From Methanobacteriota archaeon (GTDB lineage: Archaea; Thermoplasmatota; Poseidoniia; Poseidoniales; Thalassarchaeaceae), in the NCBI GenBank assembly GCA_004195715.1, contig PSPX01000007.1:54199-94554 (forward strand): a stretch of DNA of 40,356 nt. The letters are read 5' to 3'. The notes beneath the pieces were generated by a model. It was not told the origin of the DNA. It was given only the letters and a program-made list of their open reading frames with translations, and made no database searches. Positions 13,104 through 40,356 of this stretch are shown piece after piece (position 1 is the first letter of the stretch; every line of letters begins with the position of its first letter). A program made the translations under genes and the position numbers.

Positions 13104-16100
13104 ATGATGGTGAGACGCTTGGACAATCGCCTAACTCGACTCCGGCAAGCGAGTCTTGGGGTCGCTCTGTTGCTGCTGATGTCCCTGTCTCCTGCTCTGG
13201 TTCACTACGACTCACCCGTCAGAATGGAGACTGGAGGAGGGAACGAGGAGCCGTGGACCGACGGTGACCAGCCGTGGCCTCAGTCAGGCAGGACTCCTGG
13301 CAGAGTCGCTGAAGTTCCGGTTCACAGCCCTATCGGAGGTGCCGGCAATGGCAGCCCCTCTGATGCATCAGATCTGATGTCGATAGTCGAGCCGGTTGTC
13401 AACTGGGTGTACGGATCATACTCCATCGGCACTGACGCACTGGCGACCCCTGTCGCAGATCTGTCCGCATCAGTGACCAAGGACGAGGACGCTTCCGAAC
13501 GTTGCGGAGGCAGTTCCCTCTACACAATCCTAGTTCAGACAGATCAAAATTCCGATCACACCTACCTCCGAATTGTCGAGGGCGAGGACGCAGATCTGGC
13601 GTGGGAAGTAGACATGGGGATGACGGAGTATGTCAAGGCGGCCCCGGTAGTGGTCGATGTCGATGGCGATGGTTTTGAGGAAGTGCTGGTTGCCTACGAC
13701 GCTTCTGGAACGCTGTACCTCGACGCCTGGTCGCCCCGATTGTCCTGCTCGGTTACCGGTTGGTCCTCCTCAGGAGACTCCAGCCAGATGCTTTGGTCCT
13801 GGAGCGACGAATCTCTGATGATCAGTAGCGATCAGGGACCTTACACATCCAGTTTGTTGGGCGGCCACAGGCCCACAACCCAGCCGCTGCTGGCTGACCT
13901 CGACCTCGATGGTGATGCGGAGATAGTTATTGCTGCCATAGACGAAGTCTCCGGAGAACCGGTTGTGGTCGCCCTAGGACTGTCGGAAACTGGGGCCAGT
14001 CTACTCTGGGATGCTGCTCTGGACAAGGGAAGTCACCCCTCCGACCCTGCTTTTGCCCGGACCGATGAGACCACCGGATATGTTCTTTTGACGACCATCC
14101 AAGAGAGCAGTGGTGCGATGTGGGTGTGGAAACTGGATTCAGACACGGGGGATTCGAACTGGGACGGACTGACGCTGGGCAATTCCGATGGCGACACCAA
14201 TGCCCCTCACATCAGACTCCCTGGCCCCATCATCGCCAACCTCGATGGGAACTCTGACGACCTCGAGATGATACTGACTATTCCTACTGATTGGGATGGT
14301 TCCAGTTCGGTAGACGGAGCCGAGTTTGTTGGCATGGAGATAGGCAACGGCGACGAGCTCTGGTCTTTCGAGGCCTCCAATGGATTCGCCGACGCACCCC
14401 CAGTGGCAATAGACACGAATGGCGACGGTCAGCACGACAGAGTATGCTGGGTGACATGGTCGCAGGATACCACCGACAGGCACGGGCATGCCGGGTGTCA
14501 TGATGTGAGTGGCTCCAGCCCTGATCAGGCCTGGCAGAAAAGCCTCGAGCAGAGCAGCGGTTATCCAAACGACGAGATAGCGGTCGCGCCGCCAACCTGG
14601 ATGGATATAGACGGCAGCGGTGAGCAAGAGCTACTGGTCGCCTACGGTCGCTCGCTATGGGCCTTTGACGGCGATGACGGTTCATCGGCAGCCATCTGGG
14701 GAGGCTCGATCGACCTTTCTCACAGAACTTGGTCTGCCCCTGCTCTCGCTGACGTGGACGGTGATGCCACACTCGATCTGGTTCTCGGCGACACGGTCGT
14801 GTCGCATGCTCTGGCTGATATGAGGCCCCTGCTGGACCAGAGGAGTATCGAATTCAGCCCCAGCGAGCCCGATCCAGGGGAGCTCGTCACTGTGACTGCG
14901 CTGTTCGAGAACTCGGGGACTGCGGACACTGATCATGAGACTGAAGCTAAGTTGTATGTGAACGGTCAGCTGATAGCCAGCTACGAGGCAGGCACGATGG
15001 AGCCGGTCGACCCCACCGGCCCGGGCTCCTTTGAGACATTCAGCGTAGATTGGAGTGGGCCGCTAGGAGAGCACGTATTCGAACTGGTCCTCGACCCCTA
15101 CTCAAACGTATCTCAATCAAGGCGCGACAACGACGCTCAGACCACTACGCTATCCATCGTGGCACCCTACAACGCGACTTTTGAGATACCTACCGAGCCA
15201 ATCAGGGTAACTCCAGGAGAAAGTGCGCTGGCAATCCTTAATGTCCGCTCAACGGGCAGGCTTTCGGGAACATGGAGTCTTACTGTCGACGATGTCAACC
15301 TGCCAGATGGATGGAGTTGGATTGACGAGACCGATGGCGGTCTGTCGGGAGTTTTGATTGGGGCAAATGCGGTCTGGACTCCTCATCTGCGAATCCATTC
15401 ACCGCCGGATGCCCTCGGCTCAGATGCTGGATACCTTGGACTGACGCTGACGCTGGACGATGACCCGGAGAACGTCAGTGTGTCCAGCTTACTACCGTTG
15501 GAGGCAAATCGAACTCGGGGCCTGTCTCTCCGCGGTCCGGATGGGACAGTGTCGAGTACTGGTTACGGCCTGTTGGGCACCGACGCTCATGCTTGGATGC
15601 TGCTGCACAACCTCGGCAACGCTGCAGAGAATCAGATTACCATCTCTTGGGACGGTACCCCGTGGGGTTCCGACCTCAGGCTCTACGACATGGACGGAAC
15701 AGAGCGTCCTGCGCTCTCTCTCGTTGCCGATGAAGTAGTGCTGCTGACAGCGAGGCTGGAAATTCCAGATGATGTCACTCTTGGAGACTCTGTGAGCACG
15801 CCTCTGTCTATGTGTGTAGGCAGTAATGATGAACAAACCTGTCAGACAATCTCACTCACCTTCGTAGCGGCAGGAGTGGTTACGGATGTCCACCAGCGCA
15901 GTGTACCGGCCCAAGGTCTCGAGTGGACAGTCCAAGCAGATATGCCGCTTGGTGTGACTCAGTTGACTTGGTCGCTGTCGGATTCCGGCATGGCCGTACA
16001 AGGATGGTCTTGGAGTGCTTCGGGCGACCTGTCTCTAGTCGGAGATTCAATCATCATGTCCGGAGTTTCCGACTCACTGGCCAGCGGTACTCTGACTCTC

Positions 16101-18704
16101 AACCTCCCCGATGATGCCCCTCCGACCTTCCATTCCTTCTCGGATGTGAGTGACCAGTCTGCTGACCACGTCATCAGATTATCACTGGAGGTCTTACAGA
16201 TCCACAGAGCATCTCTGATTGTGACATCACCGACCGAGCAGCCCCAACTGGTCGAAGTCGGCGAGGAGGCTCTGGTCATGGTGAGGCTGGAGAATCCTGG
16301 GAACGGACAAGACACGTACCACCTGACTCACGAGGTCGTGCTCGACGAGAACATAACAGAGGACCCGGGTGTGACTGTCTCGTTCTCGAATGACATGGTC
16401 TCTCTTGGTGCCGGCAGCCTGACGAACATCCCCGTAACGGTGGCGCTCCCCTCTAGCACCCCCGCCGGGACACCAGTCAGCATAATGATCCACATGACCT
16501 CAATGAGAGACCAGTCGGTGAGTGATTCTGACTCGGTCGCTCTAGAGGCTCGTCAGGGCCACCGCTGGAACTTGTCGGCCAGTACCTCAGACTCTGATGC
16601 TGACGGCCGAACCTTCGCCGTCGCGCCTGGCGAGGGGCTCACAATTGACGTGAATTCGACTAATGTGGGCAACCTGATTGACGGACTGGAACTCAAAGTC
16701 ACCTACATCGTGTCCCTGATTGGAGAAGACGGTTCTCAGAATTGGAACTCCAGCGGAGATTCTGTCACAGGAATCGAAGTCAATCAATCAGCCCAGATGA
16801 CTGTGGAGGTTTCTGTGCCCGAAGACGCCTGGAACGGCTCAGTGATGTCGGTCAGCGTCAGTGCCGAGGTCCAAGGCGAAGTTATGGGGAGTTTTAGCTT
16901 CAATGTCGAGGTCGCTCATGTCCCAGGCTGGTCGGTGGTCGCAGATCAGGCCAATCTCGAGGTCGAACCAGGAGGATCCAGTGTTGAGCTCTCTGTGATT
17001 CAACTAGGAAACTCCCCTTCCGAGGCCTACGCCACAGTCTGGGTCAGTGGAGAGAATGGATGGGAAATCGAGATTCCCGATGACCTGCCCGTTCTCGCCC
17101 CAGGGCAGAGTGCGGCTATGACTCTCAACATCACCCCTCCCGAAACGGCCCAGCACGGAAGAGCCGTAGAATTACACATCCGACTACGTGAGGGCGACGG
17201 CAGTGGTGAGGCAGAAATCACGCTGCCCCTGAGAGTCGCCGTATTCCATGACTTCGATATGAGCGGAGAGGGTGATTGGCTGGTATCAGACGAGGGCGGA
17301 CATCCTCTGACAGAACTGCGTAACCTTGGTAACGCACCGACCACCATCAGCCTGCAGGTACTGAGTCTGCCGCTAGGATGGACGGTATCTGGGCAAACGG
17401 AGGTGGTTCTGGGCGTGGGCGAGATTAAGGGTGTGCCCCTGGAAGTTATTCCCTCGGCAGACTGGGACGGCAGCGTCCGGACCATCAGGATACTAGCCGA
17501 GGACTCAGCCGGGAACCAGCGCGAAGTCTCACTCGACACCGAGCAGTCGGAGTACTCGTGGGCCTCTTCTCCTGTCATTGTAGCAGTGTCCGGGGATCAC
17601 GCATTGGTCGGGATCCACGGTACCGACTCCTTGAGTTCAGTAACAGACTCATCTTCTGGACCTCTGGAGAGAGGTGAGAGCGGTGACTGGGCGCTTCCGG
17701 CGCTTTCCAGCGGGCCCGGCTCACTCAGTGTAGGTGGCTCGGCATTAGTTTACTATGCCCACGTCACCCAACCTTCTCTGAGAACTGCTTTTTGCAGCAT
17801 TCAGGGTGAGTTCGGGGGCGTGGTGGCACAATGCTCTGTGCTCAACGGTTCCGATTCGTTCTCGTTCACTATTCTGTTGATTGATGACAGAGGGGCGATG
17901 CTGAACTCTTTCTCTGGTAAGGCCGCCGGAGGAACTCCCCTCGGGCCGATTAACCTCAGTGCAGAGGGTTGGAGCCCTGAACCGGGCACCCGAATTCTGA
18001 CTCTGCGGCTGCTAGATGACAGGGGGGTCGAGATTGCTTCTGTTACTGGCGACTTCCAGATTCGAAGGACCGACTGGAACATCGGACTAGTGAAATTGGA
18101 ACTGGATGGCGAGGGCTCTGAGCAGCAGATTAGGGTGCTGACGAAGCGGGGTGATGGAGACAGGGCCGTACTTAAGCAATACAATGCTGATTGCAGTTTC
18201 AGTTTGGTCTCCGGCGACTACTCGATGGTACATCAGGTTGACCTTACTGGTACCTTCGCCCCCACCGTCGAAATAGATCGACCTGAGGTTATTGATGATG
18301 GAGAAGAAATCGTGGTCACCATAGGCTGCGCGTTCCCCTGGGATATTGATTCTGATTCGAATGACGATGAGAGCAGGTTGATTCTCTCGGGAGGCATTAC
18401 GGAGCCATCGAAGTACCCTGACATGGGGACTTCACTGGCTGCTGCGATGCTGGTTATCGGGGTATCTGTGGCCTTGGCTTGGATAGTCAGGAACTACCGC
18501 GAAGGCAAGGAGCTGATGGAGATGGCCATGGCCGCTGCCGAGGAGAAGATGGTCGAGCAGGGCGCTAGAGAGGCCGTCGAAGAAGTTCCTGTCGAGGAAG
18601 AAGTCAAGGAAGAGATCGAAGAACCGCGCGAACCTGAACCAGTTCCCGAAGAGCATCCTGAGGATGATTTCGAAGCCAGGCTAAAGCGCCTGACACGGGA
18701 GTAA
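13104..18704 (+). CDS. Giant surface protein (1866 aa): signal peptide, FG-GAP/VCBS-like repeats, CARDB-like domains, C-terminal TM and acidic cytoplasmic tail
   Basis: Repeats 'DVDGDGFEEVLVAY', 'DLDLDGDAEIVIAA', 'DTNGDGQHD', 'DIDGSGEQELLVAY', 'DVDGDATLDLVLG'; CARDB-like 'VTVTALFENSGTADTDHETEAKLYVNG'; TM 'SLAAAMLVIGVSVALAWIV' followed by an E/P-rich tail. Confidence 0.92.
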   Translation: MMVRRLDNRLTRLRQASLGVALLLLMSLSPALVHYDSPVRMETGGGNEEPWTDGDQPWPQSGRTPGRVAEVPVHSPIGGAGNGSPSDASDLMSIVEPVVNWVYGSYSIGTDALATPVADLSASVTKDEDASERCGGSSLYTILVQTDQNSDHTYLRIVEGEDADLAWEVDMGMTEYVKAAPVVVDVDGDGFEEVLVAYDASGTLYLDAWSPRLSCSVTGWSSSGDSSQMLWSWSDESLMISSDQGPYTSSLLGGHRPTTQPLLADLDLDGDAEIVIAAIDEVSGEPVVVALGLSETGASLLWDAALDKGSHPSDPAFARTDETTGYVLLTTIQESSGAMWVWKLDSDTGDSNWDGLTLGNSDGDTNAPHIRLPGPIIANLDGNSDDLEMILTIPTDWDGSSSVDGAEFVGMEIGNGDELWSFEASNGFADAPPVAIDTNGDGQHDRVCWVTWSQDTTDRHGHAGCHDVSGSSPDQAWQKSLEQSSGYPNDEIAVAPPTWMDIDGSGEQELLVAYGRSLWAFDGDDGSSAAIWGGSIDLSHRTWSAPALADVDGDATLDLVLGDTVVSHALADMRPLLDQRSIEFSPSEPDPGELVTVTALFENSGTADTDHETEAKLYVNGQLIASYEAGTMEPVDPTGPGSFETFSVDWSGPLGEHVFELVLDPYSNVSQSRRDNDAQTTTLSIVAPYNATFEIPTEPIRVTPGESALAILNVRSTGRLSGTWSLTVDDVNLPDGWSWIDETDGGLSGVLIGANAVWTPHLRIHSPPDALGSDAGYLGLTLTLDDDPENVSVSSLLPLEANRTRGLSLRGPDGTVSSTGYGLLGTDAHAWMLLHNLGNAAENQITISWDGTPWGSDLRLYDMDGTERPALSLVADEVVLLTARLEIPDDVTLGDSVSTPLSMCVGSNDEQTCQTISLTFVAAGVVTDVHQRSVPAQGLEWTVQADMPLGVTQLTWSLSDSGMAVQGWSWSASGDLSLVGDSIIMSGVSDSLASGTLTLNLPDDAPPTFHSFSDVSDQSADHVIRLSLEVLQIHRASLIVTSPTEQPQLVEVGEEALVMVRLENPGNGQDTYHLTHEVVLDENITEDPGVTVSFSNDMVSLGAGSLTNIPVTVALPSSTPAGTPVSIMIHMTSMRDQSVSDSDSVALEARQGHRWNLSASTSDSDADGRTFAVAPGEGLTIDVNSTNVGNLIDGLELKVTYIVSLIGEDGSQNWNSSGDSVTGIEVNQSAQMTVEVSVPEDAWNGSVMSVSVSAEVQGEVMGSFSFNVEVAHVPGWSVVADQANLEVEPGGSSVELSVIQLGNSPSEAYATVWVSGENGWEIEIPDDLPVLAPGQSAAMTLNITPPETAQHGRAVELHIRLREGDGSGEAEITLPLRVAVFHDFDMSGEGDWLVSDEGGHPLTELRNLGNAPTTISLQVLSLPLGWTVSGQTEVVLGVGEIKGVPLEVIPSADWDGSVRTIRILAEDSAGNQREVSLDTEQSEYSWASSPVIVAVSGDHALVGIHGTDSLSSVTDSSSGPLERGESGDWALPALSSGPGSLSVGGSALVYYAHVTQPSLRTAFCSIQGEFGGVVAQCSVLNGSDSFSFTILLIDDRGAMLNSFSGKAAGGTPLGPINLSAEGWSPEPGTRILTLRLLDDRGVEIASVTGDFQIRRTDWNIGLVKLELDGEGSEQQIRVLTKRGDGDRAVLKQYNADCSFSLVSGDYSMVHQVDLTGTFAPTVEIDRPEVIDDGEEIVVTIGCAFPWDIDSDSNDDESRLILSGGITEPSKYPDMGTSLAAAMLVIGVSVALAWIVRNYREGKELMEMAMAAAEEKMVEQGAREAVEEVPVEEEVKEEIEEPREPEPVPEEHPEDDFEARLKRLTRE

Positions 18705-21312: not shown

Positions 21313-22293
21313 TTAGTCCCTGCGAACCAGTTGGTAGGCGATGACCAGCGAGAGGAAGCCAATAGCGATCCAGCGCTGGTCGAATTCACTGGACTGATTG
21401 TCCTGCTCCGACATGAACAGATGCTGAACTGTCTGCAGGTTGGGAGACTCCTCCGAGGCCATCAGCACGATTCCCTCGATGTGGTAGGGCAGACCTCCCC
21501 TCAGGCCCTTCGATATGGCTTTCTGGGGAGTTATAGAGGCCATGATGTAACTGCATGTGTCTCCTCTCTTCAGATCTTCAATGGCCTCAAACTCGCCGCC
21601 GCTGTCATGAGGCCTGAATGCAATTGTCACCTCGTAGTGGCTCTCTATTCGTTTCGCCACCATGTCGGCAATCTCTGCCTCGAATCCGTAGAACTTTGCG
21701 GAACCATCCTGCCTAGACATGGGGGATTGTTGATTGTACATGCAAACAACCAACTCGCGCTTATTATCAATTATTTCGTACAGAATCCCTTCTTCGGTCG
21801 GAACCGGCCATTCCCCAATGTAGCCCTCGTAGTCGGAACCATCCAGTTCCGTTTCCCCGAGAAACCAAGTCAAGTAGGTCGCAGAGAGGGAATTGGACCA
21901 AACCAATTCAGCTAATGCGGCGTTAATGGCGTCGAGCAGTTCGGTATTTCCCCTATCCTCCGGGGAGTCAATACGAGCAACGGGCACGTATGACTCGGTC
22001 TCTTCCACCATTCCAACAATAGACAGGCCGGGTGTGTTCTCCGAGTTAACTGGGTCAGCCGCAATCGAGTGGGAAGTGAGGAAGAAGTCGATATTTCCGA
22101 CCATTAACTCTCGCATCGCCGTCTGGTAGTCTTGGTACGACGACTCAGTAATGTGCTCGTGCAATTCCAACAGGTGAACTACGGGAACCTCCTCGGATGT
22201 GCCGACGCTATACTGTGCCTCTCCGACTGCCGACACGCTGGACGCTGTCAGTAACAACGCGCTGAGACAAAGGGCCGCCAGCATGCCTCTCAT
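21313..22293 (-). CDS. Amino-acid-type (SBP_bac_3-like) substrate-binding protein with apparently circularly permuted lobe order, signal peptide and C-terminal TM anchor
   Basis: 326 aa; signal MRGMLAALCLSALLLTASSVSA; lobe-2-like 'YQDYQTAMRELMVGNIDFFL...NTELLDAINAALAELVWSNSLSATYLTWFLGE' precedes lobe-1-like 'RELVVCMYNQQSPMSRQDGSAKFYGFEAEIADMVAKRI...GIVLMASEES'; C-terminal 'WIAIGFLSLVIAYQLVRRD'. Confidence 0.8.
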   Translation of the reverse strand: MRGMLAALCLSALLLTASSVSAVGEAQYSVGTSEEVPVVHLLELHEHITESSYQDYQTAMRELMVGNIDFFLTSHSIAADPVNSENTPGLSIVGMVEETESYVPVARIDSPEDRGNTELLDAINAALAELVWSNSLSATYLTWFLGETELDGSDYEGYIGEWPVPTEEGILYEIIDNKRELVVCMYNQQSPMSRQDGSAKFYGFEAEIADMVAKRIESHYEVTIAFRPHDSGGEFEAIEDLKRGDTCSYIMASITPQKAISKGLRGGLPYHIEGIVLMASEESPNLQTVQHLFMSEQDNQSSEFDQRWIAIGFLSLVIAYQLVRRD

Positions 22294-22378
22294 GGTCCGA
22301 GGGGCTGCGATGTCGACTTAGAATTGATGGTCCGCCGAGACTATATCCGAAGAAGTACGTCAGGAGCCTGAAGTTCGC

Positions 22379-24688
22379 ATGTCCGAAGATGTCTCAAGAG
22401 TTCTCAAACCTCTGGGGAAAAAGGGTAACCGTCTCATCGCAATTCTATCATTTCTGATTCTAATCGCCCTAATCACCCCCGCTCAGGCAATTGATTATGA
22501 CGACGGCGCTAAGTACATCAGCGGGTGGGATGCCGCCGACAGCGGTACCGATGCGGACCTCTTCACATCGGCCTACGATGGCGAGTCGGTCTTCGCTTTC
22601 GGTGCTGGAGGAGTAATTCTCCAGAGCGCTGACAAGGGCGCCACGTGGGTGCAACTCGAATCGCCTGCTACTTCCAACCTGCGTGCGGCTGACTCAGTCG
22701 AAGGTGCAATCGCGGTAGTCGGAGACGGTGGGGCGGCTTACCTGCGTGCTGATGGCAGTGAGACATGGCTGGACATCTCTCTGACTCTCCCTGTAGACTT
22801 CAGAGGAATGGCGATGACCAGTGCTACCTCACTGGTAGCCGTAGGCCCTAGTGGAGCCATCTGGCAATACTCCAGCGAAACTTGGATACAAAGAGATTCT
22901 GGAGTGTCCGCAGATCTCAACGAGGTGTCCTTCCTTGATGCCACCTCGGGGATGATAGTGGGCGATGGCGGTACCATTCTTGCCACCGATGACGGAGGTG
23001 AAAGTTGGGAGTACAGAGATGCCCCGGAAGGGTTGGACGCTGACATAGTAGCGCTCGATTATTACAGTGGCATCAGAGTATATGCAATAACGGACGAGGG
23101 GCACATCGTAAAATCGGTTGGAACGAATTCTGGCACCGCGGCTGGATATGTCTGGGAACTGGTCGAGATTGAATCGGAAGGCAGAAACACCAGCCTAGGG
23201 CTCGAATTGAATTCCATCGACGTATCGTCTGTGAACAAGTTCCTCGTATCAGGCCCCTCTAGCTACACTGCTCTTTCCCTAGACGGAGGCAATATCATCA
23301 CCTCCCAGATAAACCCCCTATCAAGTACCAAGGACTTCAATCACGTCTTGTTTCTCAATCTGTTTGATGCTGTGATTGTAGGTGCGGATGGGGTGATACT
23401 ATTTTCGGAAAATGCCGGAGAGGACGAGGCGGTTGGATTTTTCATAATCGACTACGGCGACTTCGGGCAGTTCGTCGACTACTCAAAGGAAATGCTGATT
23501 GATGGGCTACACGCGACAATCAGAATTGTTCTATTCGGCATGGTCCTCGGTTTCTTCCTCGGTGTCATGCTCTCAATGATGAAGACCGCTCCTACCACTC
23601 TGAAGAATGTTGCACAACTAGATCGATACCGGATAATTATGATGATTCTATACCCATTTTGTATCATTGAGACCGTTATTCCTTTCATTCAATTATATGA
23701 TAAATCGTGGTCTGCAACTGGAATTTCAGAGAGATTACGCATTCTATCATCTACCAATACTAGACCACTCAACACCCTAGTTCTGAGGGTATTTGGATTG
23801 GGGATCCTATGCTACGGAATTATGCTGATTTTCACTTTAATCCCCATAGTTAGGGGCCTCAATCTAGACGGTTGGGAGTACGTCTACACGCCTATTGGAC
23901 TCATATCTCCGGATGGCATCAATGGAGAGCTATACTTCGGGAACTTTCTCCAGGCCCTCCTTGGTATCGCGCTGATCCTGTTGGGCCTACTGTTCCTGAC
24001 CACAAGGAAATTCTTCCTCAAGAGAGAGGTGCTCCTGCCGTTCCGTGGCATCACAGTGAAGTGGAATTTCTGGGATGTGCGGCCGATGAACGCTGTCGCG
24101 ACTGTATATACCGACCTCTTCCGCAATACTCCCCTACTCGTCCAGTTCTTGTTCATCCACTTCGGAGTGCAATTTGGTAAGATGATAGGGGATCCAGGCG
24201 CGGCGATGCTCGAGGGTGAAACGAATTTCGTCCTAGTATACATCAGAGACATGATCCTAGCTGACAGGGCATGCGTTAGCTCCATCTTCGCTCTCGGTCT
24301 GAATTCTGGGGCCTATCAGTGCGAGACAATACGTGGTGCTATCGCGGCGATTCCCTCTGGACAGATGGAGGCGGGCAGGAGTATCGGACTGAACTACATG
24401 CAGACGATGGGGCTGGTCATCATGCCTCAGGCGATTAGAATCTGTATACCCCCAATGGGTAACGAAATGGTCAACCTCGTGCTCAACTCTTCGCTCGCAA
24501 TGGTAGTTGGCTATGCTGAGCTAACTCGAAAAGGCAGACTGATTAATGCCGTTACCTTCCAGATTTTCTGGGCTTACGGCATGGTGCTAGTGTCCTACTT
24601 CGTGGTTACTTGGACGCTGGCTCTGCTCCTGAGGCGTCTCGAGACCAAGTCGAGGATTCCGGGACTTGGAATTTCAGGGGGTACATGA
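22379..24688 (+). CDS. N-terminal YCF48/BNR-like beta-propeller fused to HisM/GlnP-type amino-acid ABC permease
   Basis: 769 aa; 'GDGGTILATDDGGESWEYRDAP', 'FGAGGVILQSADKGATWVQLESP' propeller blades, then 'DGLHATIRIVLFGMVLGFFLGVMLSMM', 'YTDLFRNTPLLVQFLFIHFGV', 'ALGLNSGAYQCETIRGAIAAIPSGQMEAGRSIGLNYMQTMGLVIMPQAIR' (permease EAA-loop). Confidence 0.9.
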   Translation: MSEDVSRVLKPLGKKGNRLIAILSFLILIALITPAQAIDYDDGAKYISGWDAADSGTDADLFTSAYDGESVFAFGAGGVILQSADKGATWVQLESPATSNLRAADSVEGAIAVVGDGGAAYLRADGSETWLDISLTLPVDFRGMAMTSATSLVAVGPSGAIWQYSSETWIQRDSGVSADLNEVSFLDATSGMIVGDGGTILATDDGGESWEYRDAPEGLDADIVALDYYSGIRVYAITDEGHIVKSVGTNSGTAAGYVWELVEIESEGRNTSLGLELNSIDVSSVNKFLVSGPSSYTALSLDGGNIITSQINPLSSTKDFNHVLFLNLFDAVIVGADGVILFSENAGEDEAVGFFIIDYGDFGQFVDYSKEMLIDGLHATIRIVLFGMVLGFFLGVMLSMMKTAPTTLKNVAQLDRYRIIMMILYPFCIIETVIPFIQLYDKSWSATGISERLRILSSTNTRPLNTLVLRVFGLGILCYGIMLIFTLIPIVRGLNLDGWEYVYTPIGLISPDGINGELYFGNFLQALLGIALILLGLLFLTTRKFFLKREVLLPFRGITVKWNFWDVRPMNAVATVYTDLFRNTPLLVQFLFIHFGVQFGKMIGDPGAAMLEGETNFVLVYIRDMILADRACVSSIFALGLNSGAYQCETIRGAIAAIPSGQMEAGRSIGLNYMQTMGLVIMPQAIRICIPPMGNEMVNLVLNSSLAMVVGYAELTRKGRLINAVTFQIFWAYGMVLVSYFVVTWTLALLLRRLETKSRIPGLGISGGT

Positions 24689-25456
24689 ATGCTGGAGAAT
24701 GTGTTGAGTGTTACTAACCTGCACAAGACCTACCCAGGAGGGGTCCATGCCGTCCGCGGCATCTCGTTCGAGGTGAACGAAGGTGAGTCGGTGGCGATCA
24801 TAGGCTCATCAGGAAGCGGTAAGTCGACTGTGCTGCGATGCATCAACCGACTTATCGAGCCCACTGAAGGAGTCGTGCGGCTGCGCGGCGAGCACATCAA
24901 CACCCCCGGGGCCGATATCAACGATGTCAGATCGAGGATTGGGATGGTTTTCCAGTCATTCGAATTGTTTGCACACCTGAAGGTCATTGACAACGTGACA
25001 CTAGGCCTGAGACATGTCAGAAAGATGAGTAAGGACGAGGCCAAAGAAATAGCAATGTCTGCTCTTGAGCGTGTTGATCTTCTTGACCGAGTCGATGCGT
25101 ACCCCGGAAATCTCTCTGGCGGACAGAAGCAAAGGGTAGCCATCGCCCGGGCTCTCGCGATGCATCCCGAGGTTATGCTGTTCGACGAACCGACCAGCGC
25201 CTTAGACCCCGAACTAATAGGCTCGGTTCTGGCCACCATTAGAGGACTGGCTGACGAGGGCATGACTATGGTCATCGTAACTCACGAAATCAGTTTCGCA
25301 AGAGACGTTGCTGACCGTATCATATACCTAGACGAGGGGATTGTGGCCGAGGAGGGGCCCTCCTCAATCATAGAGAACCCCCAGACCGAACGGCTCAAGA
25401 AGTTCCTGTCCTCGATACATGAAGATGAAGTGCCCAAACAAATTCACGAAGAGTAG
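24689..25456 (+). CDS. Polar amino-acid ABC transporter ATP-binding protein (GlnQ/HisP type)
   Basis: Walker A GSSGSGKST, Q-loop VFQSFELFAHL, signature LSGGQKQRVAIARAL, Walker B VMLFDEPTSALDPE. Confidence 0.95.
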   Translation: MLENVLSVTNLHKTYPGGVHAVRGISFEVNEGESVAIIGSSGSGKSTVLRCINRLIEPTEGVVRLRGEHINTPGADINDVRSRIGMVFQSFELFAHLKVIDNVTLGLRHVRKMSKDEAKEIAMSALERVDLLDRVDAYPGNLSGGQKQRVAIARALAMHPEVMLFDEPTSALDPELIGSVLATIRGLADEGMTMVIVTHEISFARDVADRIIYLDEGIVAEEGPSSIIENPQTERLKKFLSSIHEDEVPKQIHEE

Positions 25457-34183: not shown

Positions 34184-34663
34184 ATGATTAGCATGCAGTG
34201 GTCGAGGGTACAGGTAGAGATCCTCGGCCCCAGCGGGCACGCCCCGAGCCCGCTTGGTATCGCGACCCCAGGGCTTGATGTCGGGGCTGAGCAGATGCAC
34301 GAGGAGTTCCTCGCTGATCTATCCCATTTAGACGAAGTTCGCAGTGGGCATGCCAGAGTTGTCTCCGACGTCTCTGAGCCAATTGAGACGGCCAAGTCCC
34401 TAGCCAGAGATATTCAGCCACTCGATGAGATGCTGGCAGAGTTAGGCGGCTCTTTGAGCGCTGACAGAATCAGTATCCCCCTGCCTTCGGCCATTCCCGA
34501 CGACCTAGTAGTAGAGAGACTTGCGAGCGAACGGGGAGAATTAGTACGGCTCATCGCACCAGAGCGTTTCGGTGGAATCATGAGGCAGTTCGCCCTGCCC
34601 GAGGACAGGGTCCTAACTAGGGCCGTTTGGTCGGAAGGTGAGTTGAACCTGGAGATCATCTGA
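34184..34663 (+). CDS. Hypothetical protein downstream of the helicase (listed ORF starts TTG 34148; ATG 34184 or 34193 more likely)
   Basis: ORF in operon orientation; no family recognised. Confidence 0.6.
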   Translation: MISMQWSRVQVEILGPSGHAPSPLGIATPGLDVGAEQMHEEFLADLSHLDEVRSGHARVVSDVSEPIETAKSLARDIQPLDEMLAELGGSLSADRISIPLPSAIPDDLVVERLASERGELVRLIAPERFGGIMRQFALPEDRVLTRAVWSEGELNLEII

Positions 34664-37600
34664 TTCCATCGTCGGCGATGAACGAGTCACGCTCCGGGAC
34701 CTCTTGCAACTCATCTATCTCCTGTAGCACAGTGGACAGCGCCATCTGCGCGTTCTGCCGATGCGGCTCCCCTAGAACGTGGCTGGAGTACCTAGCCTCC
34801 TCGAAAATCCTGTCCAGTGCGACCAGCGCCTGCTCGCTGATGGGCAGGGCGTTACGAATCGCCAGTTCAAACTCACGGACAGTTTCGAAATCCCTGCGCA
34901 GGAACCCTCTGCGCAACAGTATCTGACACAGACTCTCGTAGCAATTGAAGATGGCTTCTCTGACCTCATCGCCGGCAGCTAGGAGCTCTGCAGTGTAACT
35001 GAACACCCCAGCGAGTTCATCGATGGCGGCCTGCTTACGCCTACGCATCAGCATTGCCGCTCCGGCCACTAGAGCGAGTGCGATGAGTACGGCAACGAGA
35101 ATGGTCGAGAAACCGAACGACTCGCCTGTCTGCTGTTCATATTCTACATCGAGCCCGTCGCGGAAGATAGGTGGCCATGTCTTGTTGATTGGATCGACGA
35201 AGTCAGAGTCGGTAGTAAAGCACACCCGCAGCTCGCCCCAGAAGGTCTGGTTGTAGAATGAGGGGAGTCCTGTGTACGCCTCAAACTGATACACGAACAG
35301 GCCGTTCTGGTCAGTGAGTCCGACCCTAGTGAAATGTGATGTCTCCCTGTTGTCGCAGGTGCCGTTGACGAGATAAGCCGACAGTGGGAAGTCAGGCACC
35401 ACCTGTCCGGTGTCAAGCGCTGTGACGTTGATTGATCCGGACAGCAGCCTCTGATTCTTGGCAACATACAGGGAATCTGGATTGAAGTCGTAGGCCACGG
35501 AAATCAAGATTACCACCTCGACTTCAAGAGAGTCACCATTGAGGTACCTAGAGCTGTCGGGCTCGATCTTGATGGTCAGAGTCAGTGATCCTGGGGGCAT
35601 GGTTTGAATGGCATTCGTGGCGAGGTTGAAGTGCTCGGTCCCGTCATCTTCCCAAGGACTACCTGACAGTGGTAGCAAGAGATTCTCCCAATTCAACGAA
35701 ATTGTCATGTTGTGCATGATGTTGGATTCGCCGCCTATCTCTAGTATCCGCCCCTGCAGCTTGATCTTGGCGTAGGGATCTCCTCGGATGATGTCGAGAT
35801 TATTTGGGAACACCTCGATTTCAATGTCAGCCCTAGTGTAAACAATGACATTGTACTGGACCGGCAGATAGTAGGTCTCACCTGAGAAAGCGAAAGCGAT
35901 GTTATGAGGCCCGCGTGCGATAGCGTATCCAAGGTCATAGGTGTAGCTGAACGTGCCGTCAATTGAAGTGGTGATGGCCCCCACTACCTCGCCATCGAGT
36001 CGCATCGTCAACTCCCTGCCCTCAAGTCCAGGGTGACCGGACGAATCCTCGTCGAACAGCCGCCCGGTGAAGTTCCACGAGCCCCCTCTGGTGACGACAG
36101 ATGAATCGACCTGTAGGGTCATTCCTGTGTGATACGCGATAATCAGAACCGTTTCCGTGGATCCTATCCTGTGATAGCCCTGTTCTGGTGCCCTAATGGT
36201 CAGAGTATGGTTGCCGACCTCAAGGAAGTCGGATACGGTCCACAGATATGACCACTCGCCGTTCTCATCGGAGCTGGTTATGCCCACTAGTATGCCATCG
36301 ACGAATATCTGTAGCGAGTGGTTGGCGAGCCAGCCTCCGGGTAGATTGTCTTTCACCGTCCCGCTGAGCATCAGAGGATCACTCACGGCTACAGCCTGAG
36401 GCTGGACAACCGATATCTCCACGGGCCCATAGACAGTGAAGATAGACGAGGAGTTAGATCCCATAACAAACTCCTCACCTAGATATGTAATCAGAACGAT
36501 ACGTGGCCCCAACTCCATGTCTGGAGGCACGGGTATGTACAGACTGAAGGTCCCGTTCTCACCTACCGAGAGCCCGGTCAGAAACTCACCGTTCATAGAG
36601 ACCTGGAGATTTCTGTTAGGCAGCACTCTCCCCGAGCCGTCGGTGAGCATGCCCTCAATCAGCAGCAATTCGTTTCGGTCGACTTCACTAGGCGGCGTTG
36701 TCAGGACGACTTGTGAGGTCTGAGTGGCGTTGAACACCTCGGTGTACGACGAGGGAAGATAGTACTCCGGGTTGAGCGAATCGCCCTGGCCCATCGGATC
36801 GACCCAGGTGAACCCTCCAAGGAATGTCACCGTGACAGTGTGCATACCGTAGTCGACGTCTAGAGGCAAATCGTAGGTAATCGACCACTCGCCTGTGCTG
36901 GCGTTGGACTGCGTGGAGTACACTGGACCGACGCTTACTCCATCGATGTCCAAGTGGATTATTCCACCCCGGGGGTTGCCCCCGTGCACTAGGAATTGGC
37001 CGTGCTCATCAAGCAGAGTGCCACTGAAGGTCACACTCTCCCCAGCTATGGCTGAACCGGTGATGGAAGTAATCTCCAACTCGGTCGGAGCGAGGATGAT
37101 GACTCGGGTCCACGTCTCGTCGCCGAGGAGTCCGGTTGTGCCGTTGATTCCTGCGAACTCGGCAGAAATCGTCATCGGGCCAGGATTCCTCATGATATCA
37201 ACGCTAAGTACAGCGTTCATGGTTCCGTTAATGTCAGTGAATCCCCTCCAATCGAGGACACCGTCCATCAGGATGTCGACCGCTTCTGCTACAATCGGCT
37301 GTCCGGCGTTATCAATCAGCGAGATGTTTACACTAATCACGTCGCCTCGGATGGTCCTGCTATCCGGATCGAGGTCCTGAGGATCGTCTATAGTCAGCAG
37401 CGAGTACCCGCGACTGTCGAAGGTCGAGTTGCCGGTACTCGAACCGTAGTAGTTCACATTGGGAGTGTAAGTGGCCATCAGGTCGTGAGTTCCCCTCGGG
37501 AAGGTCAGGTCCAAGCGAATGTCAGCATGCCACGAGCCGTTGGGCGCGACGGATCCGCCTGTAACCGTGAAGGTGCTGCTCTGCCCATCGATGGAGAATG

Positions 37601-40356
37601 TCAAGGACGGGGAGAGAGTGTTGCCATCACGGTCGGTGATGCCACTGCCGTTACTGGAGGTCAGCATGCCGCTGACCGTGAATGACTCACCGGCCGCTGG
37701 ATTGTCAGTAATCGAGTCAAGAGTCAGATTGGTTGGAGACCTGACGATGATAGTCGTGATGGTGGTGGCAGTTGAGTGCAGCGTGGAAGAACCGTTGAAG
37801 AACAGCGTGATGGCTATCAGCCCAAGCGGGTGAGAATGCGGTATTGCGAACGAGAAGTTGACCACTCCAGCGCCGTTGCTCTGGAACTCAGGCAACCAAG
37901 TGTCGTGGAACTTCGCCCCTATTGTCGCGTTGCCAATCTGTCTGTCGTTGTCGCTCGACTCGACCAGTCGGGCACCGAAGTTGATTGATGAGCCACGGTC
38001 GGCCACCGTATTGATGATTGGATTCTTATCGACGAACTGGGTCACACCGCGAACCAGTATCGAGGCGTTTCCGGTACCGGTGAGGTAGAACGGCGTACTG
38101 CCATTGATGACGCTGACCACCACAGTCTTGACGCCGCTGGTGACACCGTTTCCGAGCGGATCTGTCGGGACCGATACTGTAAACGAACCATTGCTCGTTG
38201 TAGTGGCACTGTTGACGAGAGTTTCGCTTGAATCTGCGAGGAAGAATACCTCCACTGCCATCGGACCGTTAACGCTCCTGTTGCCATCCACAGCGTCGAT
38301 TACTCTGCCACTCATCGTGAACGTCTGCCCGGCTGTGACCTCGAGCGGTATGCTGTCTATCTCGACAAAGCTTGAAACTTGGACAGTGAGATTGACGAAG
38401 CTGTCGTTACCCAACCACCTCCCTGCATCAGCGACAGTGAGATTATCCGACTTGTCGTCTGGCACGTGCACCCGGATAGAATAGTACCCAGGCGTTGTAT
38501 CGGCGGGAATTACCGGGTTGAATATAGCGACACCATCGGCTCCAGTGGTCTGGTTCTCTATTAGCGCTTGAGAAGGCCCGCCCCAGTCGAAGTAGATGTT
38601 GGCCAGCACTCCCTGCAGCAGCGAGTCGTCCTCAACATCTGTGATGGTGGCGTTCACCCTCATGGTCGAGCCTGCTACGACAATGAGGGCGTTAGGCGCG
38701 GCTTCCACGACGAATTCAGTCTGTATCCCAGCATCATAGACGGCATCGTCCTCGACCTTGAAGTAATACCCGCCAGAGGGAGGATTTACAGTGAAGTCGA
38801 GAAGAACTCTGAGGCCGTACACACCGGAGCCGACCCCCGTTGGCATCTGGAAGCTGAGGTTGTAGCCGCCGGTGGAGTTGTTTATCCAGCCTGAAGCCAG
38901 CCTGTGGATCACTGGCGGCGCAGGGGATCCGTCAGGAGCGGGTGGGAGGGTTGAGGGGACCAGTAGTTGCACCACGACAGACGAGTTATTCCCCAGAATG
39001 GGGATGTCATGGAAGATGTCGTTGGCGAAACCCGATACCCAGTTGGTCATGCCTCTCGGCGTCCAGTCGAGCCCGAGTTCGACTGTGGCGTTGGCCCTGC
39101 CCTGGATGCGAATCACGTCAACTGCGGTAACCGGCTGCAGCCAAGTGGAGCCAGAGAAGTTCAGCACCCAGCTGTAGTCGCCCGCAAAGGTCTCCCAGGG
39201 GGGAGTGAAAGCGACGTCGAGCCTAGGCTGAGATGGGTCGGTGATATTCCATTCCTCAGTACCGTTGAGCTCAAGGATATAGGTGCCCGTGAAATCGCCC
39301 AGAGATGTGCCCGTGTGGTCGGTCAGAATCACTTCGACCACTGCGAGATTACCCCTCGGGATAGCCTGCAGAGAATAACTGAAGTTGACATAACTCCGTA
39401 TCCCGAACTGGTCTGTGAAAGTGGTCTGGTCGTTAGCGTAAAGACCCTCAGAGTCGAACTCCAGCTTGACCTGTACCTCCCCTGCGGGCAGTGGCACGTC
39501 GGCTGCTGAGAACAGCCAGTTAACAGAGAACTCGCCAGGGGAAGATGTCCAATTGCTGCTGTTCAGGTACCACGAGGTAAGCCTGATGTACGGGCCGTTG
39601 GTGTTGGAGCGCCGCATCTTGAGTATCAGCGTCCCATTCAGCGCCTCGGAGCTGGGGCCCCTGCTCAGAACTGTACCGTTCAGGTAGATCTGGGAGTCTA
39701 CCTCTAGGATGCTGTTGTTCGCTCCTGCCGCCTCAAGCGTGACGGTGAGGTTCGGGGCGGGGGTGATGTTGAACATGAACGGCATAGCAGCCGGCCTCAC
39801 ATGGTAAGACGGAGTACTGGCGTTGTTGAGGTCCTCCTCGTGCCAGCCGTAGAAGTTCAATGAGGCGTTAATCAGGCCAAGCGGCTCTGACTCATTGATA
39901 TCCAGTGAGAACTCGTAGTACCCGCCGGCCCCGACATCCGCAATCAGGCTGACCGGTCCGTCACTCGATGTGGTGTAGTTGAGGATGACCTGCAGGTTGT
40001 CGAGGGCGGACGGGTCGTTGAACGGGCTGCTGGCCCACGAAATCTCGCCAGAAACGGTGGTATTTACGCCTGCACCCAGCATCGGCTCGTTGTTGGGCGG
40101 AGGCTCTCTGATGCTTAGATTGGCGTCGTCTGAGACATTGAGGCGCCATGCGAAGGAGATTCCTTGGGAGCCGACGTAACCCTTCTCAAAGACGTGGATC
40201 ACCAGCGAGCCAAATCCGGGATTGATGACCATCTCAGGGGTGCCATTCAGACTGAAGCTGCCATTCGCATCGGTGGTCCCGTTGTCGATCAGGTGCTCGG
40301 GGAGCGAGGCGCTCCCCGGAACGTCCCCGGTGTCGTTGGATCTGACTAGGTAAAGG
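34656..40356 (-). CDS. Giant Ig-like/macroglobulin-like repeat surface protein with C-terminal TM and cytoplasmic DUF4129-like domain; 5' end beyond the window
   Basis: The 1858-aa ORF continues in frame upstream of M(40232): ...LYLVRSNDTGDVPGSASLPEHLIDNGTTDANGSFSLNGTPE-MVINPGFGS... to the window edge. C-terminus: TM 'STILVAVLIALALVAGAAMLMRRRK' then 'EAIFNCYESLCQILLRRGFLRRDFETVREFELAIRNAL' (DUF4129-like). Confidence 0.9.
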   Translation of the reverse strand, partial: LYLVRSNDTGDVPGSASLPEHLIDNGTTDANGSFSLNGTPEMVINPGFGSLVIHVFEKGYVGSQGISFAWRLNVSDDANLSIREPPPNNEPMLGAGVNTTVSGEISWASSPFNDPSALDNLQVILNYTTSSDGPVSLIADVGAGGYYEFSLDINESEPLGLINASLNFYGWHEEDLNNASTPSYHVRPAAMPFMFNITPAPNLTVTLEAAGANNSILEVDSQIYLNGTVLSRGPSSEALNGTLILKMRRSNTNGPYIRLTSWYLNSSNWTSSPGEFSVNWLFSAADVPLPAGEVQVKLEFDSEGLYANDQTTFTDQFGIRSYVNFSYSLQAIPRGNLAVVEVILTDHTGTSLGDFTGTYILELNGTEEWNITDPSQPRLDVAFTPPWETFAGDYSWVLNFSGSTWLQPVTAVDVIRIQGRANATVELGLDWTPRGMTNWVSGFANDIFHDIPILGNNSSVVVQLLVPSTLPPAPDGSPAPPVIHRLASGWINNSTGGYNLSFQMPTGVGSGVYGLRVLLDFTVNPPSGGYYFKVEDDAVYDAGIQTEFVVEAAPNALIVVAGSTMRVNATITDVEDDSLLQGVLANIYFDWGGPSQALIENQTTGADGVAIFNPVIPADTTPGYYSIRVHVPDDKSDNLTVADAGRWLGNDSFVNLTVQVSSFVEIDSIPLEVTAGQTFTMSGRVIDAVDGNRSVNGPMAVEVFFLADSSETLVNSATTTSNGSFTVSVPTDPLGNGVTSGVKTVVVSVINGSTPFYLTGTGNASILVRGVTQFVDKNPIINTVADRGSSINFGARLVESSDNDRQIGNATIGAKFHDTWLPEFQSNGAGVVNFSFAIPHSHPLGLIAITLFFNGSSTLHSTATTITTIIVRSPTNLTLDSITDNPAAGESFTVSGMLTSSNGSGITDRDGNTLSPSLTFSIDGQSSTFTVTGGSVAPNGSWHADIRLDLTFPRGTHDLMATYTPNVNYYGSSTGNSTFDSRGYSLLTIDDPQDLDPDSRTIRGDVISVNISLIDNAGQPIVAEAVDILMDGVLDWRGFTDINGTMNAVLSVDIMRNPGPMTISAEFAGINGTTGLLGDETWTRVIILAPTELEITSITGSAIAGESVTFSGTLLDEHGQFLVHGGNPRGGIIHLDIDGVSVGPVYSTQSNASTGEWSITYDLPLDVDYGMHTVTVTFLGGFTWVDPMGQGDSLNPEYYLPSSYTEVFNATQTSQVVLTTPPSEVDRNELLLIEGMLTDGSGRVLPNRNLQVSMNGEFLTGLSVGENGTFSLYIPVPPDMELGPRIVLITYLGEEFVMGSNSSSIFTVYGPVEISVVQPQAVAVSDPLMLSGTVKDNLPGGWLANHSLQIFVDGILVGITSSDENGEWSYLWTVSDFLEVGNHTLTIRAPEQGYHRIGSTETVLIIAYHTGMTLQVDSSVVTRGGSWNFTGRLFDEDSSGHPGLEGRELTMRLDGEVVGAITTSIDGTFSYTYDLGYAIARGPHNIAFAFSGETYYLPVQYNVIVYTRADIEIEVFPNNLDIIRGDPYAKIKLQGRILEIGGESNIMHNMTISLNWENLLLPLSGSPWEDDGTEHFNLATNAIQTMPPGSLTLTIKIEPDSSRYLNGDSLEVEVVILISVAYDFNPDSLYVAKNQRLLSGSINVTALDTGQVVPDFPLSAYLVNGTCDNRETSHFTRVGLTDQNGLFVYQFEAYTGLPSFYNQTFWGELRVCFTTDSDFVDPINKTWPPIFRDGLDVEYEQQTGESFGFSTILVAVLIALALVAGAAMLMRRRKQAAIDELAGVFSYTAELLAAGDEVREAIFNCYESLCQILLRRGFLRRDFETVREFELAIRNALPISEQALVALDRIFEEARYSSHVLGEPHRQNAQMALSTVLQEIDELQEVPERDSFIADDGIR

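Follow-up and report, generated by a model that had tools for sequence, protein, structure and literature searches.

Circular permutation in substrate-binding proteins

Natural circular permutation of the binding protein of an ABC importer has been described for TpMglB-2 (Tp0684) of Treponema pallidum, classified as "type Ic" or "cluster Bc" (PMC4990184). This glucose/galactose-binding protein has a type I fold and an N-terminal lipid anchor, and its chain is cut within the N lobe, with a fourth cross-over needed as a consequence (PMC4990184). Its authors suggested that the permuted topology is perhaps an adaptation to membrane anchoring or tethering (PMC4990184). The protein described here, encoded in a stretch of 40,356 nucleotides of archaeal DNA (the window), resembles TpMglB-2 in its circular permutation, its membrane tether and a two-lobed flytrap, the last two by prediction. 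It differs in being archaeal, in having a type II fold opened at the hinge between lobe 1 and lobe 2, and in carrying a C-terminal transmembrane (TM) anchor; in Pfam and NCBIfam it yields type II (SBP_bac_3) matches only, and no match to a type I fold. In further contrast to TpMglB-2, the permutants of the Poseidoniia show more than one opening within one lineage.

The canonical type II substrate-binding proteins (SBPs) such as HisJ, ArgT, GlnH and ArtJ (PF00497, cluster F) are homologous to the window protein over both lobes, and the permease and ATPase with which they work belong to the polar-amino-acid (PAAT) type, as do those encoded beside it. The window protein departs from them in its swapped halves, its junction linker, its C-terminal membrane anchor and the loss of ligand residues. 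In terms of the SBD1-SBD2 tandem of GlnPQ (6h30) and of tandem SBP-permease fusions, the permuted protein begins like the C-terminal section of one SBP and continues like the N-terminal section of its neighbor; unlike these, it comprises one domain's worth of sequence and is not fused to a permease. A group of LivK-fused lipoproteins (class C, see below) belongs to the same clade, shares the same junction linker and is likewise circularly permuted. In contrast to the window protein, these are opened after helix 1, begin with a lipobox, are associated with type I domains and a LivH-type permease gene, and retain an intact amino-acid pocket.

Targeted searches of the open-access literature yielded no natural permuted type II SBP, and TpMglB-2 is the only natural permuted SBP that we found there. 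A first-pass annotation of the window had known of no described natural family with this order, which in the open-access literature searched holds for type II proteins; TpMglB-2 provides a permuted precedent of type I. A natural permutation known for type I proteins appears here in the other large class of binding proteins, and does so in abundant ocean archaea. Two cut sites around one shared junction offer a natural experiment on how permutations originate and stay compatible with function, and the permutants also bear on the idea that permutation serves membrane anchoring.

Organization of the permuted protein

The list of open reading frames and their coordinates places a frame of 326 aa on the minus strand at 21313-22293, the parts and neighbors of which are compiled in Table 1. 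Two hydrophobic peaks, at residues 4-20 and 308-324, bear out the signal peptide and C-terminal TM segment already read from the sequence in the first-pass annotation. The anchor is a helix at residues 306-325 in the AlphaFold model and is kept in all orthologues; from these two elements, the protein is predicted to be secreted or tethered outside the membrane. Lobe 2 aligns with an E. coli SBP profile from about position 131 onward and comprises model strands from E28-33 to E91-107. Within residues 106-147, which form model helices at 116-132 and 135-143, the alignments extend to position 231 of 233 in AncQR and 241 of 243 in the ArtI profile. The junction linker has low pLDDT at residues 145-158, and the C-terminal tail, with pLDDT below 50 at residues 296-305, aligns with the end of a second permuted family, f3 (SPTITGVDDLNKA).

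Table 1. Features of the permuted binding protein and the adjacent transporter genes in the window.
Feature	Coordinates	Strand	Details
Signal peptide	22228..22293	-	Residues 1-22; AxA type, without lipobox; hydropathy peak 4-20; cleavage site read by eye
Lobe 2	21979..22215	-	Residues 27-105; canonically second, first here
Canonical C-terminal part of lobe 1	21853..21978	-	Residues 106-147; LLDAINAALAEL..YLTWFLGE
Junction linker	21787..21852	-	Residues 148-169; ..WPVPTEEG; old C-terminus joined to old N-terminus
Canonical N-terminal part of lobe 1	21454..21786	-	Residues 170-280; last here; PF00497 and AncQR matches
New C-terminal tail past hinge strand	21379..21453	-	Residues 281-305
C-terminal transmembrane anchor	21316..21378	-	Residues 306-326; ends RRD
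Divergent intergenic region, permuted SBP/permease	22294..22378		85 bases; divergent layout in 17/17 f1 genomes
Probable partner permease	22379..24688	+	N-terminal YCF48-like propeller and C-terminal PAAT permease domain
Probable partner ATPase (GlnQ-like)	24689..25456	+	PF00005

The halves of the SBP domain are swapped in this frame, a result which we regard as practically certain and which agrees with the reversed order proposed at first reading. In Pfam, the start of the PF00497 profile (positions 1-96) falls on residues 181-285 (37.9 bits, cut-off 26.4). A PDB search with the native sequence aligns residues 50-144 with AncQR 143-231 and residues 191-290 with AncQR 22-113, and among the full-length NCBIfam profiles residues 179-292 match TIGR01096 24-129 while residues 41-144 match ArtI 141-241. 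De-permutation of the window protein replaces the two PDB stretches by a single one covering AncQR 22-231 of 233 (35.5 to 41.3 bits), and the same was observed for the f3 relative L216 (85.3 to 96.5 bits).

The order was further examined by a rotation scan, in which each test sequence was rotated through all starts in steps of three and scored against a canonical profile of 236 positions built from six E. coli proteins (GlnH, ArtJ, ArtI, HisJ, ArgT, and TcyJ). For all 17 orthologues, the highest score falls on a cut within the linker, near residues 150-165. For the window protein, where the linker is likewise the best cut, the score rises from 23.8 to 52.3 bits and profile coverage extends from 131-230 to 7-230, so that both lobes and the C-terminal helix of a type II SBP are present; de-permuted L216 rises from 67.3 to 127.8 bits with a coverage of 5-233. 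The controls, comprising the E. coli proteins, AapJ-like proteins of the same archaea and the canonical-order protein L044, reach their best score within about 1 bit of the native order. Because every orthologue peaks at the linker while canonical proteins score best at their native start or within about a bit of it, a chance reading of the swapped halves is excluded, and the protein is therefore a circular permutant of the SBP_bac_3 (PF00497) family rather than a conventional member.

A second permuted family and a second cut

Among named relatives of the window, MAGs of Candidatus Thalassarchaeum and of marine Euryarchaeota are the nearest, which corresponds to the order Poseidoniales in the class Poseidoniia. 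The orthologues of the window protein (family f1) occur in 17 genomes of three Thalassarchaeaceae genera and, together with family f3, show that the order recurs in related genomes, where the first-pass annotation had proposed to look for it. The five f3 loci, which come from another family of this class, encode permuted SBPs of about 316-331 aa which are also divergent from a YCF48-type permease; one of these relatives scores 86.5 bits against PF00497. Compared with those of the window family, their permeases are about 27-31% identical over the propeller and about 61% identical over a short stretch of permease sequence. The C-terminal anchors of L214-L216 (DSPSV....ALAIGLIAVARRKN) look less like a plain TM helix than like an archaeal sorting signal.

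Class C consists of lipoproteins found in over 60 genomes of the family to which the window belongs, mostly about 1,030-1,300 aa long where complete (examples are L031, L033, L034, L036, L037, and L043). Behind an N-terminal lipobox, their first domain matches PF00497 positions 38-131 and then 1-38, which corresponds to a type II SBP with its chain opened past helix 1; LivK-like type I domains follow. After de-permutation, one class C protein scored 105.7 bits instead of 94.8 against 5t0w in the PDB search, and 112.0 bits instead of 94.8 against 6h30. A LivH-type permease gene follows the lipoprotein gene in L043, L182, and L183. The junction linker is about 18 residues long, with the same length in class C as in the window's class, and the linkers of f3 (VVLTDDTDANTADAYP) and class C (VVLTDDRDANTATAYP) can be aligned, with a mean of 8.4 identities as opposed to 4.3 in shuffles.

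Since standard profiles assume the canonical order, the window frame and the N-terminal domain of many LivK-type proteins are only partly read by standard annotation. In Ca. Thalassarchaeaceae, livK and aapJ rank among the genes with the highest transcription (PMC9723583), and the livK in question would correspond to the class C fusion.

Neighboring transporter, ligand site and proposed function

The permease next to the permuted gene exceeds the cut-offs of PF14870 and PF00528 and has GlnP/TcyL-type NCBIfam matches, with TIGR01726 above its cut-off. The best NCBIfam match of the ATPase is GlnQ with 282 bits, below the equivalog cut-off of 379 bits. A PAAT permease and a GlnQ-like ATPase encoded beside the SBP are as expected of type II SBP family 3. 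Most of the genomes sampled from several Thalassarchaeaceae genera keep the fusion of a YCF48-like propeller to a PAAT permease, and homology indicates it for f3 as well; a limited literature search found no such fusion.

In all f1 genomes, the permuted gene is adjacent to and divergent from the YCF48-propeller permease, and where the surroundings were read it sits between this permease and purC. Because the synteny is fixed, we infer that the window protein works with the neighboring PAAT-type permease and GlnQ-like ATPase. In many other genomes of the family, purC and the YCF48 permease lie side by side without the permuted SBP. Since the SBP is missing from most of the family's genomes that have this permease, it is not obligatory for the permease. 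In these genomes, no PF00497 domain that would indicate an SBP fused to or inserted into the permease is among the matches listed for the permeases.

HisJ binds its ligand by the alpha-amino and alpha-carboxyl groups through D11, R77, D161, and the GTT motif. Equivalents of D11, Y14, R77, T120, and D161 are all present in the f3 and class C proteins, so the ancestor most likely bound an alpha-amino acid. The window protein has Y, Q, I, V, and S at these five positions and V/P at T120/T121; throughout its genus, the D11, R77, and D161 positions are occupied by Y, I/M/V, and S/T. The equivalents of D11 and R77 are lost in all f1 proteins, and that of D161 in genera g1 and g9. With the usual carboxylate- and ammonium-binding residues gone from the window's branch, its ligand probably changed: these substitutions suggest a rebuilt site, the present ligand of which is probably not a free alpha-amino acid. 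The first-pass description of an amino-acid binder is consequently safe for the f3 relatives and does not extend to the branch to which it was applied.

The pocket residues thus point to a ligand either changed or lost, and outright loss would make the protein a ligand-free accessory that regulates or scaffolds the YCF48 permease from its tether, or else acts as a sensor. Besides the missing D11, R77, and D161 equivalents, the very long branch of the f1 clade and the many genomes that keep the permease without the permuted SBP speak for such a role. Nevertheless, we consider it rather unlikely: near relatives are under purifying selection (dN/dS 0.05-0.20), both lobes and the hinge are kept, synteny with the permease is fixed, and two f1 members, L011 and L088, still retain the D161 equivalent.

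In the scheme that we favor, the permuted order, its conservation, the purifying selection, the synteny and the lost pocket residues are results of the analysis, and the fold in solution, the partner, transport and the ligand are what we infer. The old C-terminus in the lobe 1 helix is joined through the linker to the old N-terminus in the first strand of lobe 1. The chain is opened at the hinge, placing lobe 2 first and lobe 1 last, and the two-lobed flytrap fold should remain. The new C-terminus at the hinge would lead through the short tail into the TM helix, which would tether the protein to the membrane on the outside. Most likely, the YCF48-propeller/PAAT permease encoded divergently from it, with its ATPase, would receive the ligand from the permuted SBP or serve as its docking site. 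We consider it likely that this proposal holds as a whole, that is, a natural type II circular permutant which keeps the flytrap fold, is tethered by a TM helix and serves the YCF48/PAAT permease with a changed ligand.

Origin of the permutations

In a phylogenetic tree, the permuted proteins all fall into one clade with the canonical-order L044 and L180, apart from 13 other canonical SBPs (support 100/98). L044 and L180, which nest near the after-helix-1 class C and are closest to it by sequence, carry a canonical-order type II SBP domain as part of a larger secreted protein in which CDNGEEIPASWENDGEADCYDGSDE-like motifs recur; they may have either kept or regained the canonical order. The lobe-2-first proteins of f1 and f3 are not sisters in this tree. 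AU tests rejected neither a single clade of both lobe-2-first groups (f1+f3, p 0.11) nor a clade uniting every permuted protein to the exclusion of L044 and L180 (p 0.14).

Elsewhere in the phylum, type II SBPs are found in tandem, two to four copies at a time (loci L217-L220), which makes a tandem ancestor plausible. L217 (1071-4916, plus strand) combines four tandem type II SBPs and a permease in one protein of 1,281 aa, while L218 has three copies and L219 two. The duplication with subsequent loss of the outer halves that was suggested from the sequence fits these observations; among the frames listed, no tandem type II intermediate was found in the window's family.

Because lobe-2-first and after-helix-1 proteins share the junction of about 18 residues, one junction appears to have been re-opened at different places, and the simplest reading is one joining event with more than one opening. 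In its full form, this account holds that a single joined Poseidoniia type II domain, tandem-derived or circularised, was opened at different places around one junction to yield two permuted families and, perhaps, another in which the canonical order was re-formed, after which one family would have lost amino-acid binding and become the C-terminally tethered partner of a propeller-bearing permease; we judge it to stand about evenly between right and wrong. Alternatively, the permuted order may have arisen several times independently, namely as lobe-2-first in f1, as lobe-2-first in f3 and as the cut after helix 1, with no single joined ancestor. The separate positions of f1 and f3 in the tree and the nesting of two canonical-order proteins near class C would be consistent with this. 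It is rather unlikely, given the near-identical linkers of f3 and class C, the common clade of the permuted classes with L044/L180, the unrejected f1+f3 clade and the same divergent permease neighbor in f1 and f3.

Predicted structures and conservation of the reading frame

The AlphaFold models of the window protein (pLDDT 75.4, pTM 0.64) and of L216 (pLDDT 76.5, pTM 0.70) are of moderate confidence. In both, strands and helices succeed one another as expected if a type II fold is permuted, and of the inner segments the linker is the weakest. The second-best Foldseek match of L216 is the SBD1-SBD2 tandem of GlnPQ, over 242 columns, a match to be expected of a chain that begins like the end of one SBP and ends like the beginning of another. 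The same order-dependent searches matched type II folds with probability 1.00, as they would for an ordinary collinear SBP whose halves had been misassigned since both lobes look alike. The collinear superpositions are poor, however, with TM of at most 0.47 for single SBP folds and mostly 7-12 Å rmsd, and the halves are swapped in every sequence-profile test. A collinear alignment, which the first-pass annotation had named as grounds for abandoning its claim, is very improbable and was rejected based on the rotation scan and the de-permuted PDB searches, in which the sequences align over their full length.

An assembly join, the other objection raised at first reading, or a fusion of two broken genes has a negligible probability. 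Nothing was found in favor of either, and both can be excluded because order, length and neighbors are the same in different, independent assemblies of 17 genomes from three genera, with the order found again in a second family and dN/dS low. The dN/dS range given above likewise led to the rejection of a pseudogene. A search for the permuted order on plasmids gave no record in which a single region matched 80% of the query.

Other reading frames in the window

Two giant frames of secreted type are present in the window: one of 1,866 aa on the plus strand (13104-18704) with CARDB/NEW3/FG-GAP domains and one of 1,858 aa on the minus strand (34656-40232) with Big_3_5/DUF4129 domains.
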